DNA from: Niabella ginsenosidivorans
GTDB taxonomy: Bacteria; Bacteroidota; Bacteroidia; Chitinophagales; Chitinophagaceae
Direction of reading: 5' to 3'
DNA: 64,000 bases
Assembly (NCBI RefSeq): GCF_001654455.1
Contig: NZ_CP015772.1
Span: 1,922,001-1,986,000, forward strand
Shown here: piece after piece, positions 1 through 24,680 of the stretch
Layout: every line of letters begins with the position of its first letter
How positions within the stretch are numbered: the first letter of the stretch is position 1
Program-made: the position numbers and the translations under genes
Notes under the pieces: model-generated
Database searches by the model: none
Seen by the model: only the letters and a program-made list of their open reading frames with translations
Told to the model about the DNA's origin: nothing

Positions 1-923
1 TCGGTGATTTGGTTCTTTTCTTTAAACTCCGATACTTTTTTTTCCACTCCGGAAAGTTCGCCCACGAGCGTACGCAACCGGTCATCGATAAAGGCTACCG
101 TATTTCGTGAAACAATATTTTTATCATCAATGGCATCCTGGTTATACACCTCGATCAACTTGTTAATAATATCAATAGCCTTCTGTGAAACGGGATCTTT
201 GACAGTGATAATAATGGTACTGGTTTGTTGATCACTTACATCGATAGACATATTTTTAGCATAATCTGCCGCATATTCCTTAATATTATTGAAGCGGAGT
301 AGGATCTCGTCCCCAGAAAACCGGAACCGTGGATTAGGATTGATGCTAAAACTGCCAAAAAGTGTTTGTATTTTTTGCCCGAATCGGAAATATTGGGTCT
401 TATTATCGATTTCTTGCGTTAATGTAAATCCTGTATGCTCTTTATTTACAGAAATAGTATAGTTTCCAACTCCTTTTTTTAAAAGTGAATCTTCATATAA
501 TGTATCGATCTGGATTATAAAAGGCCTATTTTCTCCATAAGCCTCAGAAGTACGTATATTCCCTTGAACCAGCTGGGTAGGTTGTAAACCTGGTAATTGC
601 CGCATTGCTCTTTGCAACAGGCTTTTACTTTTTAAGACCCGTACTTCATTATCCACGCTCTTGGTAGTATTAAAAATATCCAGGTCCTGGAACATCTGCA
701 TGGCATCCGCAGCACCACCACCTCCTTTTTTATCATCTTTGACCAGCAACTCGGCACTTGTCTGGTATACCGGAGTCGTATAACGCAAATATAAAAAAGC
801 CAGGATAAGGCAAATCAGTACCCCTAGTGCAAACCAGTACCAGTTGCGGGTATAACGGGTGAGCTCTGCCCGTAAATTTAATTCCTTCGGTTGTTCATTA
901 GAGATAATCGATTCTTCGTTCAT
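1..923 (-). CDS. Wzc-like polysaccharide co-polymerase / chain-length determinant, C-terminus beyond window
   Basis: The frame is open from an ATG at 921-923 to the window edge, giving 307 residues of a longer protein. After a short polar N-terminus, residues 28-47 form a membrane helix (core ALGVLICLILAFLYLRY). A Wzz-type periplasmic region follows with the typical start (tPVYqtsAeLLVKDD), and a coiled coil begins near residue 275 (DDRLRTLVGELSGVEKKV). This is the layout of polysaccharide co-polymerases that set chain length in Wzx/Wzy capsule or exopolysaccharide export. In Bacteroidota these usually end in a cytoplasmic tyrosine kinase, but that part would lie outside the window and cannot be confirmed. 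The gene sits 91 bases downstream of the Wza-like gene on the same strand, which supports the export role. Confidence 0.88.
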   Translation of the reverse strand, partial: MNEESIISNEQPKELNLRAELTRYTRNWYWFALGVLICLILAFLYLRYTTPVYQTSAELLVKDDKKGGGGAADAMQMFQDLDIFNTTKSVDNEVRVLKSKSLLQRAMRQLPGLQPTQLVQGNIRTSEAYGENRPFIIQIDTLYEDSLLKKGVGNYTISVNKEHTGFTLTQEIDNKTQYFRFGQKIQTLFGSFSINPNPRFRFSGDEILLRFNNIKEYAADYAKNMSIDVSDQQTSTIIITVKDPVSQKAIDIINKLIEVYNQDAIDDKNIVSRNTVAFIDDRLRTLVGELSGVEKKVSEFKEKNQIT

Positions 924-1014
924 TATAAAGCTCAATTTAATGTTTATGGTTTGTTGCTCGTAATTACTTATTTATCGTTGTAACTACTTAAGTGCGATCT
1001 GAAGTTATATAAAT

Positions 1015-1878
1015 TTAATTTCGAAGCAAGGCGGCCAAAAGCACAGCAACTGCTGAAATACCGGCCGTTGCAATCGGAATCCAGCGGTAATTACTGGCGT
1101 CTGCCTGGCGGGCTTTTAGTTTGTTTTCGGGCTGTACATAGACCACATCATTCTGCTGAAGGTAGAAATACGGAGATTGAAATACGTTCTTATCCGTGAG
1201 GTTTAAACGTTCCATAGTACGGGCGCCGTTTTTTTCCCGGATGACCAGCACATTTTCCCGGATGGCATAAGGAGTCATATCGCCCGCCATGCCCAGGGCT
1301 TCCAGCACATTCACCCGGTCGTCCGGTATGGTAAAGGAGCCGGGGCGGGCTACTTCCCCGATCACGGTTACTTTATAGTTGAGGAATTTTACATTGACAA
1401 TAGGTTCTTTGGCGGTTTTGGCTACTTCCGCAGTGATCTTGTCCTGTGCTTCCTTACGGGTAAGCCCTGCCACATCCACCTTGCCCAATATGGGCAGGTT
1501 TACCTGGCCGTTCTCATCTACGGGGTAGCCATTACGGGTAGCGTCAAAATTGGCATTATTAAACGTGTTTACCGTATTAGGAGTGGTGCCCTGAACGGTG
1601 GCCAGGTTCTGGTTTACGGCGCCGGAGCTGAACAATTGATTGTATTCCGGGTTTAAGGTCGTAATGGAAATACCCAGGATATCGCCTTTTTCAATTCTGG
1701 GCGTCATTTTATTAACGATCTCGCTGGTATCGCCATCCTTTGGCAGGTTGCTGAAATAGACCAGGTTTCGCGGCGTACTACAGGAGGCCATTAATAAAAT
1801 GGCAAAAAGAAAGGGCGCAAAAACCCCTTTCTGGAAGGCCCGGATGGGGACGGACGTATGTATTTTCATAAAAATCAA
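1015..1878 (-). CDS. Wza-like outer-membrane polysaccharide export lipoprotein (Poly_export / SLBB)
   Basis: This 287-residue protein has a charged start and a hydrophobic stretch ending in a lipobox-like LLMASC, so it is probably a lipoprotein. A Poly_export domain follows (IEKGDILGISITTLN near residue 63). An SLBB domain follows (VTVIGEVARPGSFTIP near 170, then ALGMAGDMTPYA). The C-terminus is hydrophobic (WIPIATAGISAVAVLLAALL), a membrane anchor typical of Bacteroidota Wza homologues. The family forms the outer-membrane channel for capsule or exopolysaccharide and works with the Wzc-like protein encoded just downstream. A second ATG three codons in (1869) would give a better signal-peptide start, so the exact N-terminus is uncertain. 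Confidence 0.9.
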   Translation of the reverse strand: MIFMKIHTSVPIRAFQKGVFAPFLFAILLMASCSTPRNLVYFSNLPKDGDTSEIVNKMTPRIEKGDILGISITTLNPEYNQLFSSGAVNQNLATVQGTTPNTVNTFNNANFDATRNGYPVDENGQVNLPILGKVDVAGLTRKEAQDKITAEVAKTAKEPIVNVKFLNYKVTVIGEVARPGSFTIPDDRVNVLEALGMAGDMTPYAIRENVLVIREKNGARTMERLNLTDKNVFQSPYFYLQQNDVVYVQPENKLKARQADASNYRWIPIATAGISAVAVLLAALLRN

Positions 1879-2349
1879 TGGTTTCGAGAATAAATGTCTG
1901 CAAAGATACGCTGCAAGATTAAGAAAAGATTTTGAATTTATTAAAAGGCTACTATTTTATTTATCCTGATTACAACAGATCCCGGGCTAAAGGCCAATGA
2001 CAGATGTGTTATTGTTTTGAAAATCAATCTTTCTTTTGTCATGCCGTTCCGATAGTTCGGAATTGTTTCGGCATCTGTTGGAACGCATATCTGCCGCCTC
2101 ACTTTAAAACAGATCCCGGAACAGGTCCGGGATGACATTCCGTTACGGATGTCGTGCTGAACTTGTTTCAGCATCTACTTGCTTCAGCATCTACTTGTTT
2201 CAGCATCTATTGGAACTTATTTCAGCATCTATTCCCGCCCGGACAACCCGGTCAGACAGATTTTCCGCCACTACTTTTCAACGTTTTATTTCCAAACGCA
2301 CCCATCTATTTAATAAATGCTTAATTTCGACCCGTAATAAGAAAAAATT
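1879..2349. other. Repeat-rich intergenic region upstream of accA
   Basis: No gene is visible. The left part (to about 2035) is plain AT-rich DNA. From about 2038 it is built of palindromic repeat modules, described separately. The last 110 bases before accA are AT-rich and hold TTAATTTCG (2320-2328), a one-mismatch match to the Bacteroidota -7 box TAnnTTTG, 22 bases before the accA start. Small open frames here are translations of the repeats and are not supported as genes. Confidence 0.7.
2038..2236. repeat. Composite palindromic (REP-like) repeat cluster A
   Basis: Three hairpin modules lie in a row. The first is ATCCCGGA (2113-2120) pairing with TCCGGGAT (2126-2133). The second is TCCGT (2139-2143) with ACGGA (2145-2149). 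The third is GCTGAA (2156-2161) with TTCAGC (2167-2172). The right half of the third is then repeated in tandem as 16-base units (ACTTGTTTCAGCATCT at 2162, 2178 and 2194), with a looser copy ending near 2236. A diverged version with TTCGG arms lies at about 2038-2080. The segment from 2081 to 2175 has a close copy between 4540 and 4700. Confidence 0.85.
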
Positions 2350-3324
2350 ATGCCACAAGACCCGGTTAGACAGTTTTTAGATTTTGAGAAGCCCATTAAG
2401 GACCTGATCGAAGAGATTGAATTGACAAAGGAGCGCGCGGGGAAGACCCAGATCGACCTTTCCGGCCAGGTGGAGCAACTGGAACAAAAAGTTGTGGAGA
2501 CCCGGAGGGATATTACCCGGCACCTTACAGACTGGCAGCGCGTGCAGCTGAGCCGCCACCCGGACCGGCCCTATACCCATAAATACATAGAGCTGATGAC
2601 TGAGAATTACGTGGAGCTCTATGGCGACCGGAACGTGCGGGATGATAAGGCAATGGTGGGCGGTTTTGCTACATTAGGCGGACAAACCGTAATGATCATT
2701 GGCCAGCAGAAGGGCTCTAATACCAAAAAACGGCAACTGCGCAATTTTGGTATGGCCAACCCGGAGGGGTACCGGAAGGCGCTGCGCCTGATGAAGCTGG
2801 CGGAAAAATTTAACAAACCGGTTATTACCTTAATTGATACCCCGGGGGCTTACCCCGGCCTGGAAGCGGAGGAGAGAGGACAGGGAGAGGCCATTGCACG
2901 GAATATTTATGAAATGATCCGCCTGAAGGTGCCGGTGATCTGCGTGATCATTGGGGAAGGCGCCAGTGGCGGCGCTCTGGGAATAGGCGTGGGCGACCGG
3001 GTATTTATGATGGAAAATACCTGGTATACCGTTATTTCGCCGGAGAACTGTTCTACGATCCTGTGGAGAAGCTGGGATTATAAGATGAAGGCGGCCGAGC
3101 AGCTAAAGCTGACTTCCGCTAAAATGAAGGAATTCGGCCTGATCGATGGCATTATACCGGAGCCGGACGGTGGCGCGCACTGGGATTATAAAGTTGCCGC
3201 GGAAAACCTGAAGCGGCAATTGATCGCCACCCTGAACGAACTGAAACCCCTGGACCCTCAAAAACGCATTAACGACCGTATTGAGAAATTTTCCAAAATG
3301 GGGTTCTGGCAGGAATATAAATAG
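2350..3324 (+). CDS. accA: Acetyl-CoA carboxylase carboxyltransferase subunit alpha
   Basis: The 324-residue product matches the usual AccA length and plan. An N-terminal helical part ([19 protein letters not shown]) is followed by the crotonase-like carboxyltransferase core, with [15 protein letters not shown] near residue 63, the substrate region [15 protein letters not shown] near 213, and [12 protein letters not shown] near 237. With AccD it transfers the carboxyl group from carboxybiotin to acetyl-CoA, making malonyl-CoA for fatty-acid synthesis in the cytoplasm. AccD is not in this window. The gene stands alone between repeat-rich spacers. Confidence 0.97.
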
Positions 3325-3513
3325 GGAGCAGGGAGTAGCAAGCAGGGAATAGGGGGATACAACCCATACGTCTGCGGCCAATGTTGGTCAATAGTGAAAA
3401 ATGAATAGGAAATAAACGCTGGTGCCCTCTGATTTTGACTGATCAACTGATTCCTGACCACTCAATACTGATAGCTGAAAACTGATATCTCAACTCTGAA
3501 ATCTCAAACATAA
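3325..3513. repeat. Word-like low-complexity spacer between accA and dapA
   Basis: The spacer is made of short recurring words. It opens with GGGAGCAGGGAGTAGCAAGC and ends in permuted units such as AATACTGATAGCTGAAAACTG and ATCTCAACTCTGAAATCTC. Close relatives of the same words occur at 61361-61608 downstream of galK. No gene, clear terminator or promoter is visible. The nature of such spacers is unknown to me; I only see that the wording recurs. Confidence 0.6.
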
Positions 3514-4398
3514 ATGTCACTTCAACAAAAATTTACAGGAACGGGGATTGCGATTGTAACGCCGTTTCATGAGGACCGTTCTATTGACTGGGCCAGCTTT
3601 GAAAATTTAATTAATTTCTGGATTGAAAATAAGGTGGAATACCTGGTGGCTGTGGGCACTACCGGCGAAAGCGCCACGCAAACGCGTGAGGAAGAGCAGG
3701 AGGTGTTTGATTTTGTAAAGAAGGCCACTGCGGGCCGGGTGCCCCTGGTGGCAGGGGTTGGTGGAAACGATACCGCCGAGGTGCTGGAAGCTTTTAAAAA
3801 GATGCGGCTGGATGGCTTTGATGCGCTCCTATCCGTGTCGCCGTATTATAATAAGCCCCGGCAGGAGGGCATTTACCAGCATTATAAGGCGCTGAATGAC
3901 GCCGCACCGCTTCCCATTATTATGTATAATGTACCGGGGCGTACCGGCATGAGCGTTTCTGTGGAAACGACCCTGCGCATTGCGCACGACTGTAAAAATA
4001 TTTTTGCCACCAAAGAAGCTTCCGGCAGTTTTGAGCAGATCAACCGGATCATGAAAAACAAACCGGATGATTTTATGCTGATCAGTGGTGATGATGCCAT
4101 TACCCTGCCCATGATTGCCTGCGGGGCAAAAGGCCTGATCTCCGTAATTGCGAACGCTTACCCGAAAGACTATTCGGATATGGTGCGTCTTTGCCTGGCC
4201 GGAAAATTTGAAGAGGCATTGCCCATTCATTTAAAATACCTGGATATGGTGGATGCGCTGTTTAAGGAAGGCAGCCCTTCCGGTGTAAAATACGTGCTGA
4301 GCAAAATGGGCTATTGCAAAAATACCATGCGGTTGCCTGTAGTGCCGGTAAGCCCGGCGCACGAAGCGCGGCTTGATGAGCTGATGGCGGGGCTCTGA
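3514..4398 (+). CDS. dapA: 4-hydroxy-tetrahydrodipicolinate synthase
   Basis: This 294-residue TIM-barrel aldolase condenses pyruvate with aspartate semialdehyde, the first committed step of lysine and diaminopimelate synthesis. Visible family marks are the pyruvate-binding VGTTGESAT near residue 47, the proton-relay tyrosine Y138 in MYNVPGRTG, and the Schiff-base lysine K167 in ATKEASGSF. Length and start (MSLQQKFTGTGIAIVTPF) are normal. No other lysine-pathway gene is adjacent. A perfect hairpin with palindromic-repeat character follows the stop codon by 12 bases. Confidence 0.97.
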   Translation: MSLQQKFTGTGIAIVTPFHEDRSIDWASFENLINFWIENKVEYLVAVGTTGESATQTREEEQEVFDFVKKATAGRVPLVAGVGGNDTAEVLEAFKKMRLDGFDALLSVSPYYNKPRQEGIYQHYKALNDAAPLPIIMYNVPGRTGMSVSVETTLRIAHDCKNIFATKEASGSFEQINRIMKNKPDDFMLISGDDAITLPMIACGAKGLISVIANAYPKDYSDMVRLCLAGKFEEALPIHLKYLDMVDALFKEGSPSGVKYVLSKMGYCKNTMRLPVVPVSPAHEARLDELMAGL

Positions 4399-4410
4399 CC
4401 CTGAAGCAGA

Positions 4411-4436
4411 CCCTGCCCCGAACATTCGGGGCAGGG
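4411..4436. terminator. Perfect GC-rich hairpin after dapA, repeat-derived
   Basis: CCCTGCCCCGAA (4411-4422) is the exact reverse complement of TTCGGGGCAGGG (4425-4436), with only CA between. It lies 12 bases after the dapA stop. It has no T-run, so it is not a classical intrinsic terminator. Its right flank (TGACATTCCGTTACGGATGTC) is the same as in the palindromic repeats, so it is probably a variant repeat module that may also stabilise or end the dapA transcript. Confidence 0.5.
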
Positions 4437-4757
4437 TGACATTCCGTTACGGATGTCCTGCTGAACTTGTTTCAGCATCTACTTGTTTCAGCATCTGTTG
4501 GAGCTTGTTTCAGCATCTGCCTGTTTCAGCATCTATTGGAACGCATATCTGCCGCCTCATTTTAAAACAGATCCCGGAACAAGTCCGGGATGACACGGAA
4601 CAAGTCCGGGATGACACGGAACAAGCCCGGGATGACACGGAACAGGTCCGGGGTGACATTCCGTTACGGATGTCGTGCTGAACTTGTTTCAGCATCTACT
4701 TGTTTCAGCATCTGTTGGAACTTGTTTCAGCACTGCCTGTTTCAGCAGATGAATTCG
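4437..4757. repeat. Composite palindromic repeat cluster B with 21-base tandem array
   Basis: The cluster has central TTCCGTTACGGATGTC modules at about 4442 and 4660. Each is followed by runs of CTTGTTTCAGCATCT-type units. Between them lies a tandem array of four 21-base units (4575-4595, 4596-4616, 4617-4637, 4638-4658), each starting CGGAACAAGTCCGGGATG or a near variant. The period equals two helical turns. The cluster ends next to the GIY-YIG promoter and contributes the DNA just upstream of its -7 box. Confidence 0.88.
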
Positions 4758-4765
4758 TACATTTG
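4758..4765 (+). promoter_or_regulatory. Putative Bacteroidota -7 box for the GIY-YIG gene
   Basis: TACATTTG fits TAnnTTTG exactly and lies 21 bases before the ATG at 4787. The -33 position would fall around 4735-4741 (CCTGTTTC), inside the last palindromic-repeat unit. The repeat may therefore supply part of the promoter. Confidence 0.45.
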
Positions 4766-4786
4766 CAGTGCCTGTTAATAAACCAT

Positions 4787-5083
4787 ATGAATGAACACCA
4801 TTATACTGTTTACATCGTTTCCAATTACTTAAGAACCGTTTTGTACACCGGTGTTACTAACGATATTGTACGCAGGATGAGCGAGCACAAAAGTGGAGAG
4901 CAGAAGGGATTTACTTCCCGCTACCGATGTTATTACCTGGTATATTTTGAAGAATTTTCTGATATCAGAAATGCGATAGCACGTGAAAAACAACTAAAAA
5001 GATGGCACAGGGAGTGGAAGCTAAACCTGATCAAAACGCAGAATCCTGATATGAAGGACCTTTCTGACGAATGGTTTGTGTGA
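4787..5083 (+). CDS. Small GIY-YIG nuclease domain protein
   Basis: The 98-residue protein is a single GIY-YIG domain. It has TVYIV (residues 7-11) for the GIY part and LYTGVTND (19-26) for the YIG part. The arginine region is DIVRRMSEHKSG, and the family's conserved IAREKQLKRWHREWK segment supplies the metal-binding glutamate. I chose the ATG at 4787 because the domain begins six residues later. The frame stays open upstream only because it reads through repeat DNA. Similar short proteins are common in bacteria; their substrates are mostly unknown. The gene is bracketed by tandem palindromic arrays of the same family on both sides (4437-4757 and 5091-5290), suggesting that it targets or travels with these repeats. 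Confidence 0.93.
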   Translation: MNEHHYTVYIVSNYLRTVLYTGVTNDIVRRMSEHKSGEQKGFTSRYRCYYLVYFEEFSDIRNAIAREKQLKRWHREWKLNLIKTQNPDMKDLSDEWFV

Positions 5084-5090
5084 TCCCGAG

Positions 5091-5290
5091 ACGAGTCCGG
5101 GATGACATTCCGTTACGGATGTCGTGCTGAACTTGTTTCAGCATCTACTTGTTTCAGCATCTATGGGAATGAATACAGCTAACAGATCCCGGAACACGTC
5201 CGGGATGACACGGAACAGGCCCGGGATGACACGGAACAGGTCCGGGATGACGTCCAGAGTGAGCTCTGAGAACAGACCCGGGGTGACGTC
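5091..5290. repeat. Composite palindromic repeat cluster C, downstream of GIY-YIG gene
   Basis: It starts 8 bases after the GIY-YIG stop with GAGACGAGTCCGGGATGACA, then TTCCGTTACGGATGTCG and GCTGAACTTGTTTCAGCATCT units. Three tandem 21-base units follow (5190-5210, 5211-5231, 5232-5252), and a degenerate copy (ACCCGGGGTGACG) lies near 5276. Module order and orientation match cluster B, so the nuclease gene sits between two like-oriented copies. Confidence 0.87.
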
Positions 5291-5307
5291 TTCAGTGAGA
5301 TATAGGC

Positions 5308-6171
5308 TCAGGATACCAGCGCCACCTTATACCACCAGTCGATCTTACCGCCGGCGTCTTCATGGCTGTAATTGCCTTCTCCGTTACCGGCTCCGCCGCC
5401 TCTCATTCCTCCTCCATGCATGCCGCCACCCCGCATGCCATGCATTCCTCCTCCCATGCCACCACCCCGCATGCCACCGCCTCCTGCGCTGACGCGGGTA
5501 TGCGCTGTTCCATGCACGGCGGATTCCCCGCCGGGTCTTTTCAGCTCGGCAATGCTGATGCCGATAACCGTATTGTTCTTATTAACGGCCAGCAGGCTTC
5601 TGGGAATAGTGACCACGTACCTGAAGAAGCCACTGGCATCGCTGGTGGCCGAAAAATGAAGGGAGCCGGGAGCCGTGCTGTTTACATCCAGCAACTGTGC
5701 TTTTCCATTGTCAGTAAGCGCTGCCTGTTTGTAGAACGAAGTATAATTGCGCTCGTCATCCGGCTGTTGCTGATAGAACGGGCGCCTGCCGCCTGTGGTT
5801 GTATCGCCGGGATGCCCCGGCAGGCTGCCACGGTCCCGATGGCTGTCGGAACGATCAGGATTGTTATACGGGTACTGAACATACCTTGTGGCATCTTTTG
5901 AGCCCGAAGGGCTGAAATAGACTTTCACCCCTTCCCGCAATATCCGCATCTTTGCAGCGGCATTATCCGTTTCCAGTATCACGTAAAGGTTTTTATCATC
6001 ATTCCGGAAATCGTACCGGATATGCGTTTTGTCGTCATAAAACCGGGAGGGATAAGCCTGTGTGGTGGCTGCATCCATATGCAGCGCTTCCGCGGGCATT
6101 ATCTTTTTACTGCCGGAACATGCGGCAAGCATTATAGCCAGTACTACTGCGGGAATCCATTGTTGGGCCAT
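5308..6171 (-). CDS. Glycine/methionine/histidine-rich lipoprotein of unknown function
   Basis: The 287-residue protein has a clear lipobox (MLAAC, cysteine 18), so it should be membrane-anchored outside the cytoplasm. Residues 40-210 look like a beta-rich domain (THIRYDFRNDDKNLYVILET and GVKVYFSPSGSKDATRY), resembling carbohydrate-binding or DOMON-like sandwich proteins, but I cannot assign a family. Residues about 230-262 are a low-complexity run of GGGM, GGMHG and MRGGG units rich in methionine and histidine, which could bind soft metals. The C-terminus (GGKIDWWYKVALVS) is ordinary. No operon partner is close; the next gene on this strand is 380 bases upstream. Function is unknown. Confidence 0.8.
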   Translation of the reverse strand: MAQQWIPAVVLAIMLAACSGSKKIMPAEALHMDAATTQAYPSRFYDDKTHIRYDFRNDDKNLYVILETDNAAAKMRILREGVKVYFSPSGSKDATRYVQYPYNNPDRSDSHRDRGSLPGHPGDTTTGGRRPFYQQQPDDERNYTSFYKQAALTDNGKAQLLDVNSTAPGSLHFSATSDASGFFRYVVTIPRSLLAVNKNNTVIGISIAELKRPGGESAVHGTAHTRVSAGGGGMRGGGMGGGMHGMRGGGMHGGGMRGGGAGNGEGNYSHEDAGGKIDWWYKVALVS

Positions 6172-6551
6172 ATATATAAACCTGTTTTACAGTATGACTC
6201 TTTTTGTAAAAAATAATTGCAGGCAGCAACAGTTAATTAGTTTTAACAGGCATATAATTGTGCAGCACTGTAACCAGTGCTCAGCCCGATGGCCATCAGT
6301 ACAGGGCAGCATTTTTGACAGGGGGCTCACAGGAGCCAAGAGCCGTGCTGTTTAAAAGCAGCCATGCTGCACAGGATTTTTTCCCGGTAGCTGAAGTTCG
6401 GAAAGCCCCGTTTGATGGTTTCTTAAGCACCGGGGCAGGCGGTATGCACTATTTTCCTGAAATGGGCCAATACAGGCGGAACAAAGGTTGCGCGGCGGCT
6501 ATGCAGGTATCAACTCCCGGGTTGCTGGTAATCATCCATAAAGCGGGTATT
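6172..6551. other. Intergenic stretch without a recognisable gene
   Basis: It lies between the stop of the transglutaminase operon and the start of the lipoprotein gene (both minus strand). A perfect hairpin AGCACTG-TAAC-CAGTGCT is present near 6266-6283, without a T-run. Open frames on the plus strand continue antisense into the transglutaminase gene and look like shadows. Nothing else is supported. Confidence 0.5.
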
Positions 6552-7460
6552 TTATTGCTGCTGCTGTATATGAAACTGTTCGGGAATAAAGGCGGGCGTC
6601 TGCACTTTCTGCTGGTGCATTTCCACTTCGTTATTGTCTTCAATGGTATGACCGTCTTCATACCCTACGCTAACATACACGTTCATGCTTTGATTGGCAA
6701 TGCCCTTAAAGGACCCTTTTACTGGAGAGCAATCATTAAAATGCCTTCCTACGGCCAGCTTTACATGTGCATCCGCCACCCACATATTATTGGTAGGGTC
6801 AATGCCATGCCAGCCATATTCATCCACCCAGGCTTCCACCCAGGCATGGGTGGCGCCCTGGCCGCGCATGCCGTTCCGGTTGGGGCAAATATAGCCGCTT
6901 ACATACCGGCAGGTAATGCCCAGCGTTCTTAAAAGGTGCAGCAGCAGGTGCGCAAAGTCCTGGCATACCCCGCGCTGGTGCTGCAGGATTTCATCAATGG
7001 TGGTTTCTATAGTGGTAACCCCTTTTTCGTATTTAAAATGATGATAGACATACTGGCTGCACCATTCTACCAGGGTACGCTTGTGCGCATTTACCGGTGC
7101 GCGGGACAGGATATCGTTAATGATATCATTGGAGCCGATCAGGAAGGGTTGGGTATAATCCAGCCGCATTATTTCCGGCAGCGGCTTCATCAGCCGCAGC
7201 GATGGCAATTCTGTATGCACCACTATTTTACTGTCTATTTTTACGGTATAATGCGGCTCTGTTATAGTAAATACAGCTACCCGGTTGCCCCAGTAATCAA
7301 TGAATAAATTCAGCGGAGGATCGCCTGTAATGGCAACTTCCTGCTGAATAACGTTCTGATCGTTCCCGTGAAAGGGATAAATTTTTACCTGGGTTACACT
7401 GTCAATAACAGGTGCGTCATACAGGTACTGGGTAATATGTCTTATATTATATGTAGGCAT
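6552..7460 (-). CDS. Transglutaminase-like cysteine peptidase-fold protein
   Basis: The 302-residue protein begins with the bacterial transglutaminase N-terminal beta domain (YNIRHITQYLYDAPVIDSV). It continues into a transglutaminase core with the full triad: C166 in QRGVCQDFAH, H205 in ATHAWVEAW and D221 in HGIDPTNN. Such proteins are predicted to act as peptidases or amide-exchange enzymes. It is the last gene of a tight operon after the ATP-grasp and alpha-E genes (18-base gap). This trio is widely conserved and has been proposed from comparative genomics to make or process a peptide-like product. No product has been established that I know of. Confidence 0.92.
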   Translation of the reverse strand: MPTYNIRHITQYLYDAPVIDSVTQVKIYPFHGNDQNVIQQEVAITGDPPLNLFIDYWGNRVAVFTITEPHYTVKIDSKIVVHTELPSLRLMKPLPEIMRLDYTQPFLIGSNDIINDILSRAPVNAHKRTLVEWCSQYVYHHFKYEKGVTTIETTIDEILQHQRGVCQDFAHLLLHLLRTLGITCRYVSGYICPNRNGMRGQGATHAWVEAWVDEYGWHGIDPTNNMWVADAHVKLAVGRHFNDCSPVKGSFKGIANQSMNVYVSVGYEDGHTIEDNNEVEMHQQKVQTPAFIPEQFHIQQQQ

Positions 7461-7478
7461 TTACAACGTGTTCTGGAT

Positions 7479-8417
7479 TTAATAATAAGAAAAGAAACTT
7501 TGCCCTATGAGCTGGCTTAACTGGTAAAGATCGGATTTCAGTTCTTCAATAAAGGCGAGTACTCCTTTTTCCCGGATGCCCTGCAGATCTGTATAGGCAA
7601 TTTTTGAAAACAGCGCACCGGTCTTCCGCTCTATTAAGGGGTTATTAGGATGGTTATTCTCTTTTAAGATATTCCTTATATACAGCTGTATTTTACCAAA
7701 GCTATAGGTAATGCTTCTTGGAAAAATATTCTTCAGGAAAATCATGTCTGTAATGTTCTGCATGTGGTTTTCACCGCGATAGCTTTTCAGGTAAAGCTCA
7801 TACCCGCTCAGGTTCAGCAGCAGGTTTTTCCAGTAAAGGATGCTCAGGCATTCCGGGTCGTTGTTGTTGAAGGCGGCAAACTTTGCTTCCGCAAAATTCA
7901 GCGTCTGCATACTGCGCTCCACAAATCTGCCGAGGTTCATAAAATTCCATCCCTGCCCGCGGGGCATCGTGTTTTCAAAAACACCGTAATAGATCAGGCT
8001 TTCATCAATTTTATGTAAAATAAGGTTCATCTGGTCGCCATCGGCAATCACTTTTTCAATGTTGATGTGCACTGTTGAATGATAGGTTTCATTAATGGAC
8101 TCCCACACTTCCTTGGTGAGGTGCTCCTGTGCGCCTCTTGCATTTTCCCTTGCTTTTAAAACCAGTTCCTTTAATGAATTGTTCTTATCACGGATCAGCA
8201 GTTCCCGCAGCACGTTGTCTGAGCTGGCTGCAATGGCTTCAATTTCCTCATCCGTGCGGTAACAAAAGATCTTTACCAGGGCACTCCAGTTAAAGACCTG
8301 GCGGCTGCTTATATCATAGCTGGCGTAAAATCCATTGGCCAGCGTTCTTGAAACAATATCAGCGCGTTCCATATAACGGCTCATCCAGTACAAACTATCG
8401 GCGGTCCTTGCTAACAT
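7479..8417 (-). CDS. Alpha-E domain protein (DUF403)
   Basis: The 312-residue all-helical protein starts with the family signature MLARTADSLYWMSRYMERAD and carries the later RGQGWNFMNLGRFVERSMQT segment. It is cytoplasmic and has no signal peptide. Alpha-E proteins nearly always accompany the circularly permuted ATP-grasp enzyme and a transglutaminase-like protein, as here. Gaps are 23 bases upstream and 18 bases downstream, so co-transcription and a shared complex are likely. The biochemical role is unknown. Confidence 0.93.
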   Translation of the reverse strand: MLARTADSLYWMSRYMERADIVSRTLANGFYASYDISSRQVFNWSALVKIFCYRTDEEIEAIAASSDNVLRELLIRDKNNSLKELVLKARENARGAQEHLTKEVWESINETYHSTVHINIEKVIADGDQMNLILHKIDESLIYYGVFENTMPRGQGWNFMNLGRFVERSMQTLNFAEAKFAAFNNNDPECLSILYWKNLLLNLSGYELYLKSYRGENHMQNITDMIFLKNIFPRSITYSFGKIQLYIRNILKENNHPNNPLIERKTGALFSKIAYTDLQGIREKGVLAFIEELKSDLYQLSQLIGQSFFSYY

Positions 8418-13908: not shown

Positions 13909-14501
13909 GGGCTGTTTGTTGAATGCCCGCAGATTCTCGGAACGCCGCTGATGATGAAAGATGTCTGCGCATTTAGCGTATTCAGCGGGGAAAACCCCGT
14001 TCTGGATGGGGTTTCCGCAAAGTTTTTGCCGGAGGTATTTATTTTGTAATTTATCCGGATCTGAATTCCGGAAAGCAGCTATATATTCACAGCAATACTG
14101 TTCTGCAAAGAACAATGATACCCAGGCTGTATCAAAAGTCATTATTGTCATACCGGGCTTGATCCGGTATCTAAAAATCACATATAATTATCAATAGATT
14201 CTGAAACAACTTCAGAACGACATTCCGCTGTTAAAGCAACTTTTGATACAGCCCCTGTTTGCTGCAACATCTAAACATGGTTACAATAATAAAATGAATT
14301 ATGGCGGTATTATTGAAGAAATGATTTGATGAAAAAAGAAAAGGGGGAATGCGCTTTCATTTTTAAAATCACAGAAATACAACCCCCCATTTTAGTATGG
14401 ATAAAGAATTCGTCTGAAGCATTCAGCAGCATGCTGTTTCTTACAGAAAATTGTTTTACTTTTAGTAATCAACCAAAGGTAAATAAAGGACGGCTTTTAT
14501 T
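13909..14501. other. Intergenic region with a TIR element upstream of rmuC
   Basis: No gene is supported. At 13914-13990 lies palindrome-rich DNA (CTCGGAACGCCGCTGATGA and GCATTTAGCGTATTCAGCG) that resembles material at 24490-24650. At 14125-14253 is a terminal-inverted-repeat element. The rest, 14254-14501, is AT-rich leader DNA before rmuC. An 83-residue frame overlaps the rmuC start and looks like chance. Confidence 0.55.
14125..14253. mobile_element. MITE-like element, copy 1 (15-base terminal inverted repeats)
   Basis: GGCTGTATCAAAAGT (14125-14139) is the exact reverse complement of ACTTTTGATACAGCC (14239-14253). The interior has a GTCATACCGGGCTTGATCC palindrome module and a TTCTGAAACAACTTCAGAACG module related to the REP-like repeats. 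The element has no coding capacity. A second copy with identical ends lies at 19438-19558. Confidence 0.75.
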
Positions 14502-23604: not shown

Positions 23605-24680
23605 CCGGCTGTGATATGCACAAATCATTTCCTGATGCGGTAATAATTTTCAGCAGTTCCGAGGCTTTGCATAGCCGCCCGTTTAGGGGCGGAAGCACGG
23701 TTTTTGAGTATTGCTATCCGAAACACTTCCCGGTGCCAAAGAAATGCATCGTGCCGGTGGCACTCAAAGTTCTATAGGGATTTTTTGGGGCTGACCAAAA
23801 GTAAGCCTGAGCCCGCCCGTTTTCTCCGGTCGGACGGGCTTGATGAAGGCTAACCCCCTGATTGCCTGTATTTCAACAGACTGCCCATGACAGATTATAT
23901 GATATGTTGAAACCAATCCTGTTTTAGTTGGGGCTGACCAAAAAGCCCTTTTTGTCATGCTGAATTTATTTCAGCATCTAAAATGGCGTCTGATTGTAAA
24001 TAGATTCTGAAACAAGTTCAGAACGACAATCTACTATAAACAGACTTTTTGGTCAGTCTCCTGTGTATGGTACCGCTCAACAGGCCCTGAAACAAAAACC
24101 CGGAACAGGTCCGGGATGACATCTTCAGGGTAACCCCTGAGAAGGATCGACATAGCCTTATTGATTTTGTTTTTGCAAATGGAAAACTCAGGGTGACGGT
24201 AAAAAAGAGGGCCATTTTAAAGAATTTAATTCTTTTTATCTGAGACTCAATATGACAATCAGGGAGCCTTGGTAGTCATCCCCGTTCCATGAACCAGGCC
24301 GATGGCCTTTGGGCCTGGAAAGAGCTGCAGCGCATTGTTTAGGAATTGCTATAATGATGCGTACAGAGGTGCAGCCTCGACCGGATGTGTTAACAAAGAA
24401 CTTCACTTCAGCTCGTTGTTAAAGTGACGGTAATAAAAACGGAGAGCTGTAGGCTCGGGCCATAAGCTGACAGCAATATGAGGCTTTGAAACGCGGACAA
24501 TGCTAACAACAGAACCATCAGCGCATTCTGCATATTTTTAGGGAGCCTCCAAACGAAATGTTATACCAGATAAATTTCCCGCAGCTCCGAAGAAGTTTCG
24601 GAACGCAGACAACGCTGAAGACAGAACTATCAGCGGATTCCGGGGCCTCGGAACTGTACGTTACTACCCGCTGCTAAAGA
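23605..24680. other. Long repeat-rich non-coding region
   Basis: There are about 1.1 kb between convergent genes with no supported gene. It holds GC-rich hairpins soon after the ubiD stop (CCGCCC-GTTTA-GGGCGG near 23670; GTGCC-GGT-GGCAC near 23752). TTGGGGCTGACCAAAA occurs twice in the same orientation (about 23785 and 23929), and the second copy starts a TIR element. A CCCGGAACAGGTCCGGGATG palindrome lies near 24100. At 24480-24650 two related segments (GCGGACAATGCTAACAACAG and GCAGACAACGCTGAAGACAG) form a degenerate tandem pair. Confidence 0.6.
23931..24059. mobile_element. MITE-like element, variant ends
   Basis: The ends GGGCTGACCAAAAAG (23931-23945) and CTTTTTGGTCAGTC (24045-24058) are near-perfect inverted repeats. 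The interior has GTCATGCTGAATTTATTTCAGC and AGATTCTGAAACAAGTTCAG modules, in the same arrangement as the elements at 14125 and 19438. The terminal sequence differs (GACCAAAAAG in place of TATCAAAAGT), so it is a sister family. A lone left end lies near 23785. Confidence 0.65.

Follow-up and report, generated by a model that had tools for sequence, protein, structure and literature searches.

Small GIY-YIG nuclease genes bracketed by CGTC-tagged palindromic repeats suggest a mobile-repeat system in bacteria

Results

A GIY-YIG nuclease gene lies within an array of palindromic elements

The window analyzed here is a stretch of 64,000 nucleotides from Niabella ginsenosidivorans, whose genome is a single contig of 5.63 Mb. 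It encodes a 98-aa GIY-YIG nuclease (Table 1), which is flanked on one side by ORFs within 2350-4398, presumably accA and dapA, and on the other by a minus-strand ORF at 5308-6171. The protein matched PF01541 over residues 6-80 (E=7.3e-17; 61.9 bits against a cut-off of 22.6), while a search of NCBIfam gave no match at E 0.001. Six residues, Y9, Y20, R30, H34, E67 and N86, which correspond to the positions expected of a GIY-YIG active site, were invariant in an alignment of 40 homologues. All six were conserved at 90% or above in a 21-protein alignment, where H34, E67 and N86 fell short of invariance. The window protein thus has the hallmarks of the GIY-YIG superfamily, namely the PF01541 domain and the residues Y, Y, R and E plus H and N. 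Its predicted structure (pLDDT 94.3) was most similar to UPF0213 BH0048 (PDB 1zg2; E=6e-4, 24% identity) and, more weakly, to Slx1 (E=0.016), a structure-specific nuclease; UvrC N-domains followed at E=0.18 and above. By sequence, the nearest solved structures were also UPF0213 proteins (1zg2, E=0.003; 1ywl, E=0.008). The dN/dS ratio of the gene was 0.02-0.23 in eight of ten pairs, dS being saturated in the other two, and by this measure the gene is under purifying selection.

Four further PF01541 proteins are encoded in the window genome, and only one of them, a 105-aa protein (L002), was matched by the window nuclease itself. Arrays of another palindrome, GTCATGCTGAGCGAAGCCGAAGCATC, bracket the L002 gene as well; this palindrome had 17 genome matches at no more than three mismatches and none in the reversed control. 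Elsewhere in this genome, a 106-bp direct repeat (89%; L004:1282-1387 and 1674-1779) overlaps with one copy the 5' part of another small GIY-YIG gene.

The window gene sits within a tandem array of palindromic elements of the frame (C/T)GTC - stem - loop - stem' - C(T/C), in which the tag is NGTC with T or C as its most frequent first base. We distinguished cluster A (2111 to about 2230), cluster B (4410-4748) and cluster C (5082 to about 5290). The initial annotation had placed the gene between two like-oriented clusters of common module order, and this was borne out: clusters B and C have in common, on the same strand, CGGAACAAGTCCGGGATGAC-type units, the linker ATTCCGTTACGGAT and GTC(C/G)TGCTGAACTTGTTTCAGCATCT units. 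The distances it gave had to be corrected. The gap between the last cluster-B repeat and the start codon is 38 nt instead of about 30, and the first element of cluster C, said to begin 8 bases past the gene, overlaps the stop codon by 2 nt. Elements of two kinds, GTC(C/G)TGCTGAACTTGTTTCAGCATCT and GTCATCCCGGACTTGTTCCGGGATCT, follow one another on alternating strands, with the constant 14-bp linker connecting their tags. The window modules had 4, 8 and 11 matches, compared to 0.01, 0.00 and 0.00 expected from dinucleotide shuffles. The two gene-proximal elements face each other with their GTC tags outward, at 4672-4674 upstream and 5104-5106 downstream, which places the gene in the spacer of a single tags-outside dimer. 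No Rfam match at gathering scores was obtained for window positions 1-8000. In the genome as a whole the elements are dispersed and multi-copy, with 63 covariance-model matches and 82 merged elements.

In their sequence, the window elements fit the CGTC-tagged REPs defined by Di Nocera, De Gregorio and Rocco (2013, PMC3733652). In the part of that paper considered here, these REPs form one of two large REP superfamilies, include Neisseria dRS3 and Rickettsia RPE-4/6, and "apparently lack a dedicated transposase"; in 2013 their origin had yet to be explained.

Table 1. Nuclease gene and palindromic elements in the window
Feature	Position	Strand	Basis
Cluster A: elements 2111-2136 (-) and 2151-2176 (+), linker ATTCCGTTACGGAT between; partial copies to about 2230	2111..2176	.	
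Variant element, 13-bp stem, tag GAC at 4438-4440	4410..4440	-	sequence read directly
14-bp linker ATTCCGTTACGGAT joining two tags	4441..4454; also 2137-2150, 4658-4671, 5107-5120	.	pattern matches
Element GTCCTGCTGAACTTGTTTCAGCATCT, followed by incomplete tandem copies as far as about 4548	4455..4480	+	
Element GTCATCCCGGACTTGTTCCGGGATCT, followed by incomplete tandem copies as far as 4657	4569..4594	-	
Element GTCGTGCTGAACTTGTTTCAGCATCT with outward tag, bracketing the gene upstream; incomplete copies as far as 4748	4672..4697	+	
98-aa GIY-YIG nuclease gene	4787..5083	+	PF01541, residue conservation, model pLDDT 94.3
Element GTCATCCCGGACTCGTCTCGGGATC with outward tag, bracketing the gene downstream and overlapping its stop codon	5082..5106	-	
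Element GTCGTGCTGAACTTGTTTCAGCATCT; partial copy to 5162	5121..5146	+	
Element GTCATCCCGGACGTGTTCCGGGATCT, followed by incomplete tandem copies as far as 5251 and a degenerate remnant up to about 5288	5184..5209	-	
Dispersed dimer without gene, tags outside: 14147-14172 (+) and 14196-14221 (-)	14147..14221	.	
Dispersed dimer without gene, tags outside: 23954-23979 (+) and 24002-24027 (-)	23954..24027	.	
One additional unit close to dimer 23954-24027	near 24101-24120		

Nuclease genes are associated with palindromic elements across phyla

The 21-protein alignment was used to scan a collection of species genomes, and the best 80 of 571 relatives, picked on protein similarity only, were kept with flanks of up to 10 kb. 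These 80 loci came from Bacteroidota, Pseudomonadota, Patescibacteria-type bacteria, Chloroflexota, Armatimonadota, Acidobacteriota, Fibrobacterota, Cloacimonadota, KSB1 and others. The density of GTCAT/ATGAC fell from 10.2/kb at 0-100 bp of the gene to 1.75/kb at 6-10 kb, whereas that of the reversed-word control went from 2.0 to 1.1 over the same distances. An unbiased k-mer scan, in which sequence within 250 bp of the gene was compared with windows at least 2 kb away at the same loci, returned TGTCAT as the top 6-mer (61 of 79 loci; 16.1 expected) and GTCATCC as the top 7-mer (41 of 79; 5.9 expected); GTCAT itself was found near the gene at 78 of 79 loci, with 46.6 expected. Hairpins scoring at least 8 followed about 40% of 356 GTCAT words within 300 bp of the gene, compared to 5.6% of 1692 beyond 2 kb and less than 1% in shuffles.

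A first detector of complete elements, lacking GA/GT tolerance, was dropped because it missed most relatives. At the 80 loci, strict elements reached 8.94/kb within 50 bp of the gene, compared to 0.139/kb at 6-10 kb and 0.046/kb in shuffled DNA, which is the enrichment around homologues that the initial annotation had proposed as a check. At least one strict element was present within 300 bp of the gene at 65 of 80 loci and none at the other 15. Elements occurred on both sides at 45 loci; the nearest pair had outward tags at 31 of these, inward tags at 4 and tags pointing the same way at 10 (outward versus inward, p=3.5e-6). We also applied a test independent of the tag, asking for perfect hairpins of at least 8 bp no more than 110 bp from the gene. 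Of 78 nuclease genes, 29 had such hairpins on both sides, compared to 6 of the 777 other ORFs, 200 aa or longer, at these loci (p=3e-27). An alignment of 34 elements, taken for the covariance model from the detector's own matches, had 94.9% of stem cells paired and two-sided changes in six of eight pairs (slid structures, 17-47%), figures that are descriptive since the detector had already selected for pairing.

A distant GIY-YIG clade in genomes of the same family served as a control. Its 20 loci had 1.71 GTCAT/kb and no strict element, whereas 25 near-clade loci had 6.47/kb and 29 strict elements, located in 9 of the 25 loci and absent from the other 16; six family loci (L030-L035) were left out of this comparison. 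Two or more GTCAT words were found at 4 of 20 distant-clade and 18 of 25 near-clade loci (p=8e-4). As a separate observation, distant-clade small GIY-YIG genes also occur in tandem, two to four in a row with periods of about 330-520 bp and without strict palindromic elements (L169-L174, in G071, G051, G007, G055, G027 and G003).

Repeats and small ORFs do pile up between genes, and the nuclease genes and palindromes could in principle have met passively in permissive intergenic DNA. We regard this as highly improbable, because the distant clade of the same family shows no enrichment, hairpins on both sides are rare at other ORFs and the tags point so predominantly outward. By these sequence comparisons, the association of the GIY-YIG clade with palindromic elements across phyla is close to certain.

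Twenty Flavobacteriaceae and Bradyrhizobium stretches were also inspected, three of which (L195, L204 and L207) duplicated loci of the 80. Among the 17 new loci a strict element was detected in L196 only; an unblinded reading of the same 17 found palindromes around most genes, several of them tagless or with other stems. The L195 stretch (G084:C12) comes from a Flavivirga genome, in which the family alignment had 16 matches, and carries three tandem REP-gene-REP copies, two of which contain a stop codon, as if decaying. In Neisseria gonorrhoeae NZ_CP119140.1, a 2.17-Mb record filed as a plasmid yet chromosome-sized, a nuclease relative without an annotated gene (L117) lies inside a large array of dRS3-like elements. 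In the phage collection, ten records had a nuclease relative; all were Rhizobium phages, and none covered 80% of the query.

Repeat number and element class follow the nuclease

Relatives of the nuclease were found in 48 of 79 family genomes, with one to eight matches per genome where present, distant clade included. Elements were counted in all 79 with the covariance model (R1) and a second-class pattern, GTCATNNCGAGGNACGA, which had one reversed-control match across the 79 genomes. The near clade was delimited by a best E of 1e-10 or lower, a cut-off set after the family search results had been seen. Among the 27 near-clade genomes, 20, 18, 14, 14, 12 and 8 reached thresholds of 1, 2, 3, 4, 5 and 10 elements of either class; among the other 52 genomes, 14, 5, 3, 1, 1 and 0 did so (p=2e-7 at four elements). 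Repeat number therefore tracks gene presence, the second relationship that the initial annotation had pointed to. When any match was taken as gene presence, at least four elements were found in 14 of 48 versus 1 of 31 genomes. Fewer than four elements of the two searched classes were present in 13 of the 27 near-clade genomes, and G062 had elements and no gene. Moreover, dispersed copies carry the stem of their own genome's gene: GTCATCCC in 41 of 42 copies in G009, GTCATTCC in 13 of 14 in G034 and GTCATGCC in 10 of 10 in G063. Random sampling of 40 stretches of 20 kb was too sparse and failed to separate gene-bearing (G000, G055, G009 and G027) from gene-less genomes (G022, G004, G018, G067, G066 and G065), with 0-3 strict matches per genome versus 0.5-2.5 in shuffles; only the two in G055 look real.

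Many of these genomes (58 of 79) encode Y1 transposases (PF01797), and RAYTs are the enzymes of other REPs. A Y1/RAYT or other transposase might thus mobilize the CGTC-REPs, the nuclease gene being a passenger. This explanation appears very unlikely. In our search of the Y1 family, transposases were equally frequent in element-rich (11 of 15) and other genomes (47 of 64; p=1.0), and the window genome has a single Y1 match, separated by about 10 kb from the closest element listed. In addition, Di Nocera et al. (PMC3733652) found CGTC repeats flanking a tyrosine transposase gene in none of the species they list. Taking the clade control, the hairpin test, the orientation of the tags and the Y1 counts together, we judged both RAYT mobilization and passive co-location unlikely. 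The initial annotation was right in expecting a system unlike RAYT-REPIN, since the enzyme differs and element abundance is unrelated to Y1 transposases.

We then compared the elements with a tree of 85 nuclease sequences, for 65 rows of which an element class (CTTG-loop, tetraloop, GA-mismatch or other) was set by a simple rule, or by hand in five rows. Element class required 16 changes on the tree, compared to a mean of 28.9 (minimum 23) in 300 shuffles; 300 within-phylum shuffles, with rows lacking a phylum pooled, never gave fewer than 20. The tree is built on few columns and leaves 51 of 82 inner branches open. It departs from organismal phylogeny, the nearest rows to the window protein by path including Thermotogota and a Roizmanbacterium. 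In this data set, element class follows nuclease phylogeny.

REP-gene-REP units vary in presence and position between relatives

On Sphingobium megaplasmids, a REP-gene-REP unit lies between fnrL and a response regulator in four records. The same site holds a single palindrome built of the two outer arms in TomTYG64 and TomTYG74, and neither gene nor element in TomTYG72 and TomTYG65. One filled copy, TYG73, has a one-base deletion, and the solo site might have arisen by simple deletion between 8-bp repeats. In a sphingomonad syntenic block, a 402-405-bp unit ending at CGTC tags occupies one site in G080 and L056, and the same unit is found inverted in G079 at another site about 10 kb away; G079 and G080 each lack a copy at the other's site. 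Only block positions were used here, because the nucleotide alignment of the two sites is too diverged to give target ends. Within the window genus, G095 carries the gene on the other side of the neighboring ORF, and G096 has two copies at unrelated loci, whose aligned blocks of 448 bp are 96.7% identical and have REPs at their ends. The gene is absent from the stretch of about 6 kb at dapA in nine further genomes of the genus (G098 left out). Four Rhizobiaceae loci (L089, L102, L116 and L118) have only the gene and its bracket in common, over 298-379 aligned columns. The same REP-gene-REP unit is therefore seen at different sites with defined ends, and both presence/absence and relocation between relatives are evident from these genome comparisons. 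Nicking or moving of the repeats by the nuclease, as the initial annotation had put forward, would fit these data.

At L025, two inverted elements enclose the gene, and an exact 109-bp duplication of host sequence flanks the insertion, a single case among the loci. The two copies (L025:1062-1170 and 1842-1950) comprise the end of a host gene and a terminator. We identified no target-site duplication at the Sphingobium sites, the sphingomonad sites or the G009 dimers.

Elements also occur as dimers without the gene. Among the 82 merged elements of the window genome there were 25 adjacent pairs less than 150 bp apart, 21 of them with tags outside, and 12 of these 21 were spaced by 47-50 bp. Of 20 places in G009, selected from 42 matches, 18 hold a dimer with conserved ends and a variable middle (second arm matched by pattern in nine and read by eye in nine); the exceptions were L226, without a second element, and L222, the gene locus. 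Such gene-less, tags-outward dimers are dispersed like REPINs, judging from their distribution in the sequences. Several dimers in G009 (L213-L232) share longer flanks, GCTT..AAGC and about 45 bp upstream, which hint at a larger repeat around the REP dimer.

The main rival to mobilization by the nuclease is homing: the nuclease would cut resident CGTC-REPs and the REP-flanked gene would recombine into them as a selfish gene, the REPs spreading by other means. GIY-YIG is a classic homing-endonuclease fold, the gene usually lies between REPs, the copies in G096 end in REPs, and two Sphingobium records have, ambiguously, a solo palindrome where relatives carry the gene. Against homing, REP abundance tracks the gene, element class tracks the nuclease tree, and the gene-less dimers have fixed spacing and outward tags, as if they were mobile units themselves. 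We consider homing alone rather unlikely, and it may be part of the same process as mobilization.

Less likely again is a housekeeping role, in which the nuclease would resolve REP cruciforms or hairpins, guarding the replication fork, or process REP transcripts, with selection keeping it close to the repeats. The weak fold similarity to Slx1 (E=0.016), the low dN/dS and the small copy number (1 to 8 per genome) are in keeping with such a role. However, a repair enzyme does not need linkage, yet the genes are bracketed at tens of bp; they change place between relatives, and their phylogeny is not organismal.

Discussion

Of the explanations considered, we favor, as the probable one, a REPIN-RAYT-like mobile system with an unrelated GIY-YIG nuclease, in which the gene and the palindromes together form one mobile-repeat system. 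The comparisons suggest this GIY-YIG clade as the missing partner by which a large bacterial repeat family is spread or maintained; that the nuclease mobilizes the repeats is what we infer from the genomic patterns. The CGTC/TGTC-tagged REPs would serve as recognition sequences and ends, and the enzyme would be a GIY-YIG nuclease of roughly 90-100 aa. The full unit, of about 400 bp, would consist of tag-REP, gene and REP-tag with tags outward. Gene-less dimers (about 75-90 bp) and solo REPs would be its non-autonomous or degraded forms, as REPINs and REPs are for RAYTs.

By analogy with GTAG-plus-hairpin, thought to be the substrate of RAYTs, the tag plus hairpin is probably the substrate of the nuclease. 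The enzyme may recognize the hairpin and (C/T)GTC tag in single-stranded or cruciform DNA and cut at the tag or at the stem base. Indeed, Slx1-like structure specificity, together with arms capable of forming cruciforms, suggests cutting of extruded or single-stranded hairpins. GIY-YIG enzymes hydrolyze DNA, and to our knowledge none joins strands. Host repair might copy or join the freed or broken ends into new sites or other REPs, by which dimers would spread and occasionally the gene as well.

More broadly, and as a tentative proposal in which we place less confidence, mobile palindromic repeats across phyla could be moved by a stand-alone GIY-YIG nuclease acting on tag-plus-hairpin DNA together with host repair, in the absence of a transposase, integrase or HUH enzyme. 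This nuclease would then be the missing engine of CGTC-REPs, including Neisseria dRS3 and, putatively, the Rickettsia RPEs. Since the clade is bracketed by CGTC-REPs, co-varies with them and tracks their abundance, the question of their origin becomes directly testable. If the nuclease does move REPs, it would do so by a transposition-like process that relies on host repair and a GIY-YIG nuclease and is convergent with REPIN-RAYT; this would account for the repeat arrays of many bacteria. A literature search in full texts, with few subscription papers and no bioRxiv preprints among them, gave, among the papers listed, none that we recognized as linking GIY-YIG proteins to CGTC-type repeats.

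Among proteins of known structure, the small GIY-YIG proteins of UPF0213 (PDB 1zg2 and 1ywl) are the nearest relatives, yet distant ones. GIY-YIG homing endonucleases, such as I-TevI, share with the window nuclease the catalytic domain and possibly selfish spread. In contrast to them, the domain here fills nearly the whole 98-aa protein (residues 6-80), and the gene is located between REPs rather than inside an intron or intein.

REPIN-RAYT systems were reportedly the subject of a study by Nunvar et al. in 2010. As far as the part of the work considered here goes, those described by Bertels and Rainey (2011, PMC3116915) resemble the present system in their dispersed inverted REP doublets with a spacer, in an enzyme gene near its REPs and in the proposed co-evolution of REP and enzyme. 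Here, however, the enzyme is a GIY-YIG protein and not an HUH/Y1 transposase, so that it is no RAYT; the tag is (C/T)GTC and not GTAG; and the gene lies inside the inverted pair, in a place that varies between relatives.

With the CGTC-tagged REPs, as presented in the part of the study by Di Nocera et al. (PMC3733652) considered here, our elements share the terminal CGTC/TGTC tag, the 8-9-bp stem starting with AT, the short loop, the short unpaired tail (CCA), an occurrence in several phyla including Bacteroidetes, and dimers mostly with tags outside (HH), as in 21 of 25 pairs in the window genome. They differ in that stems GTC-AC and GTC-GT, GA-mismatch stems and long loops are also present among them, and in that, whereas that paper names no dedicated enzyme, a GIY-YIG clade is here tightly associated with the repeats.
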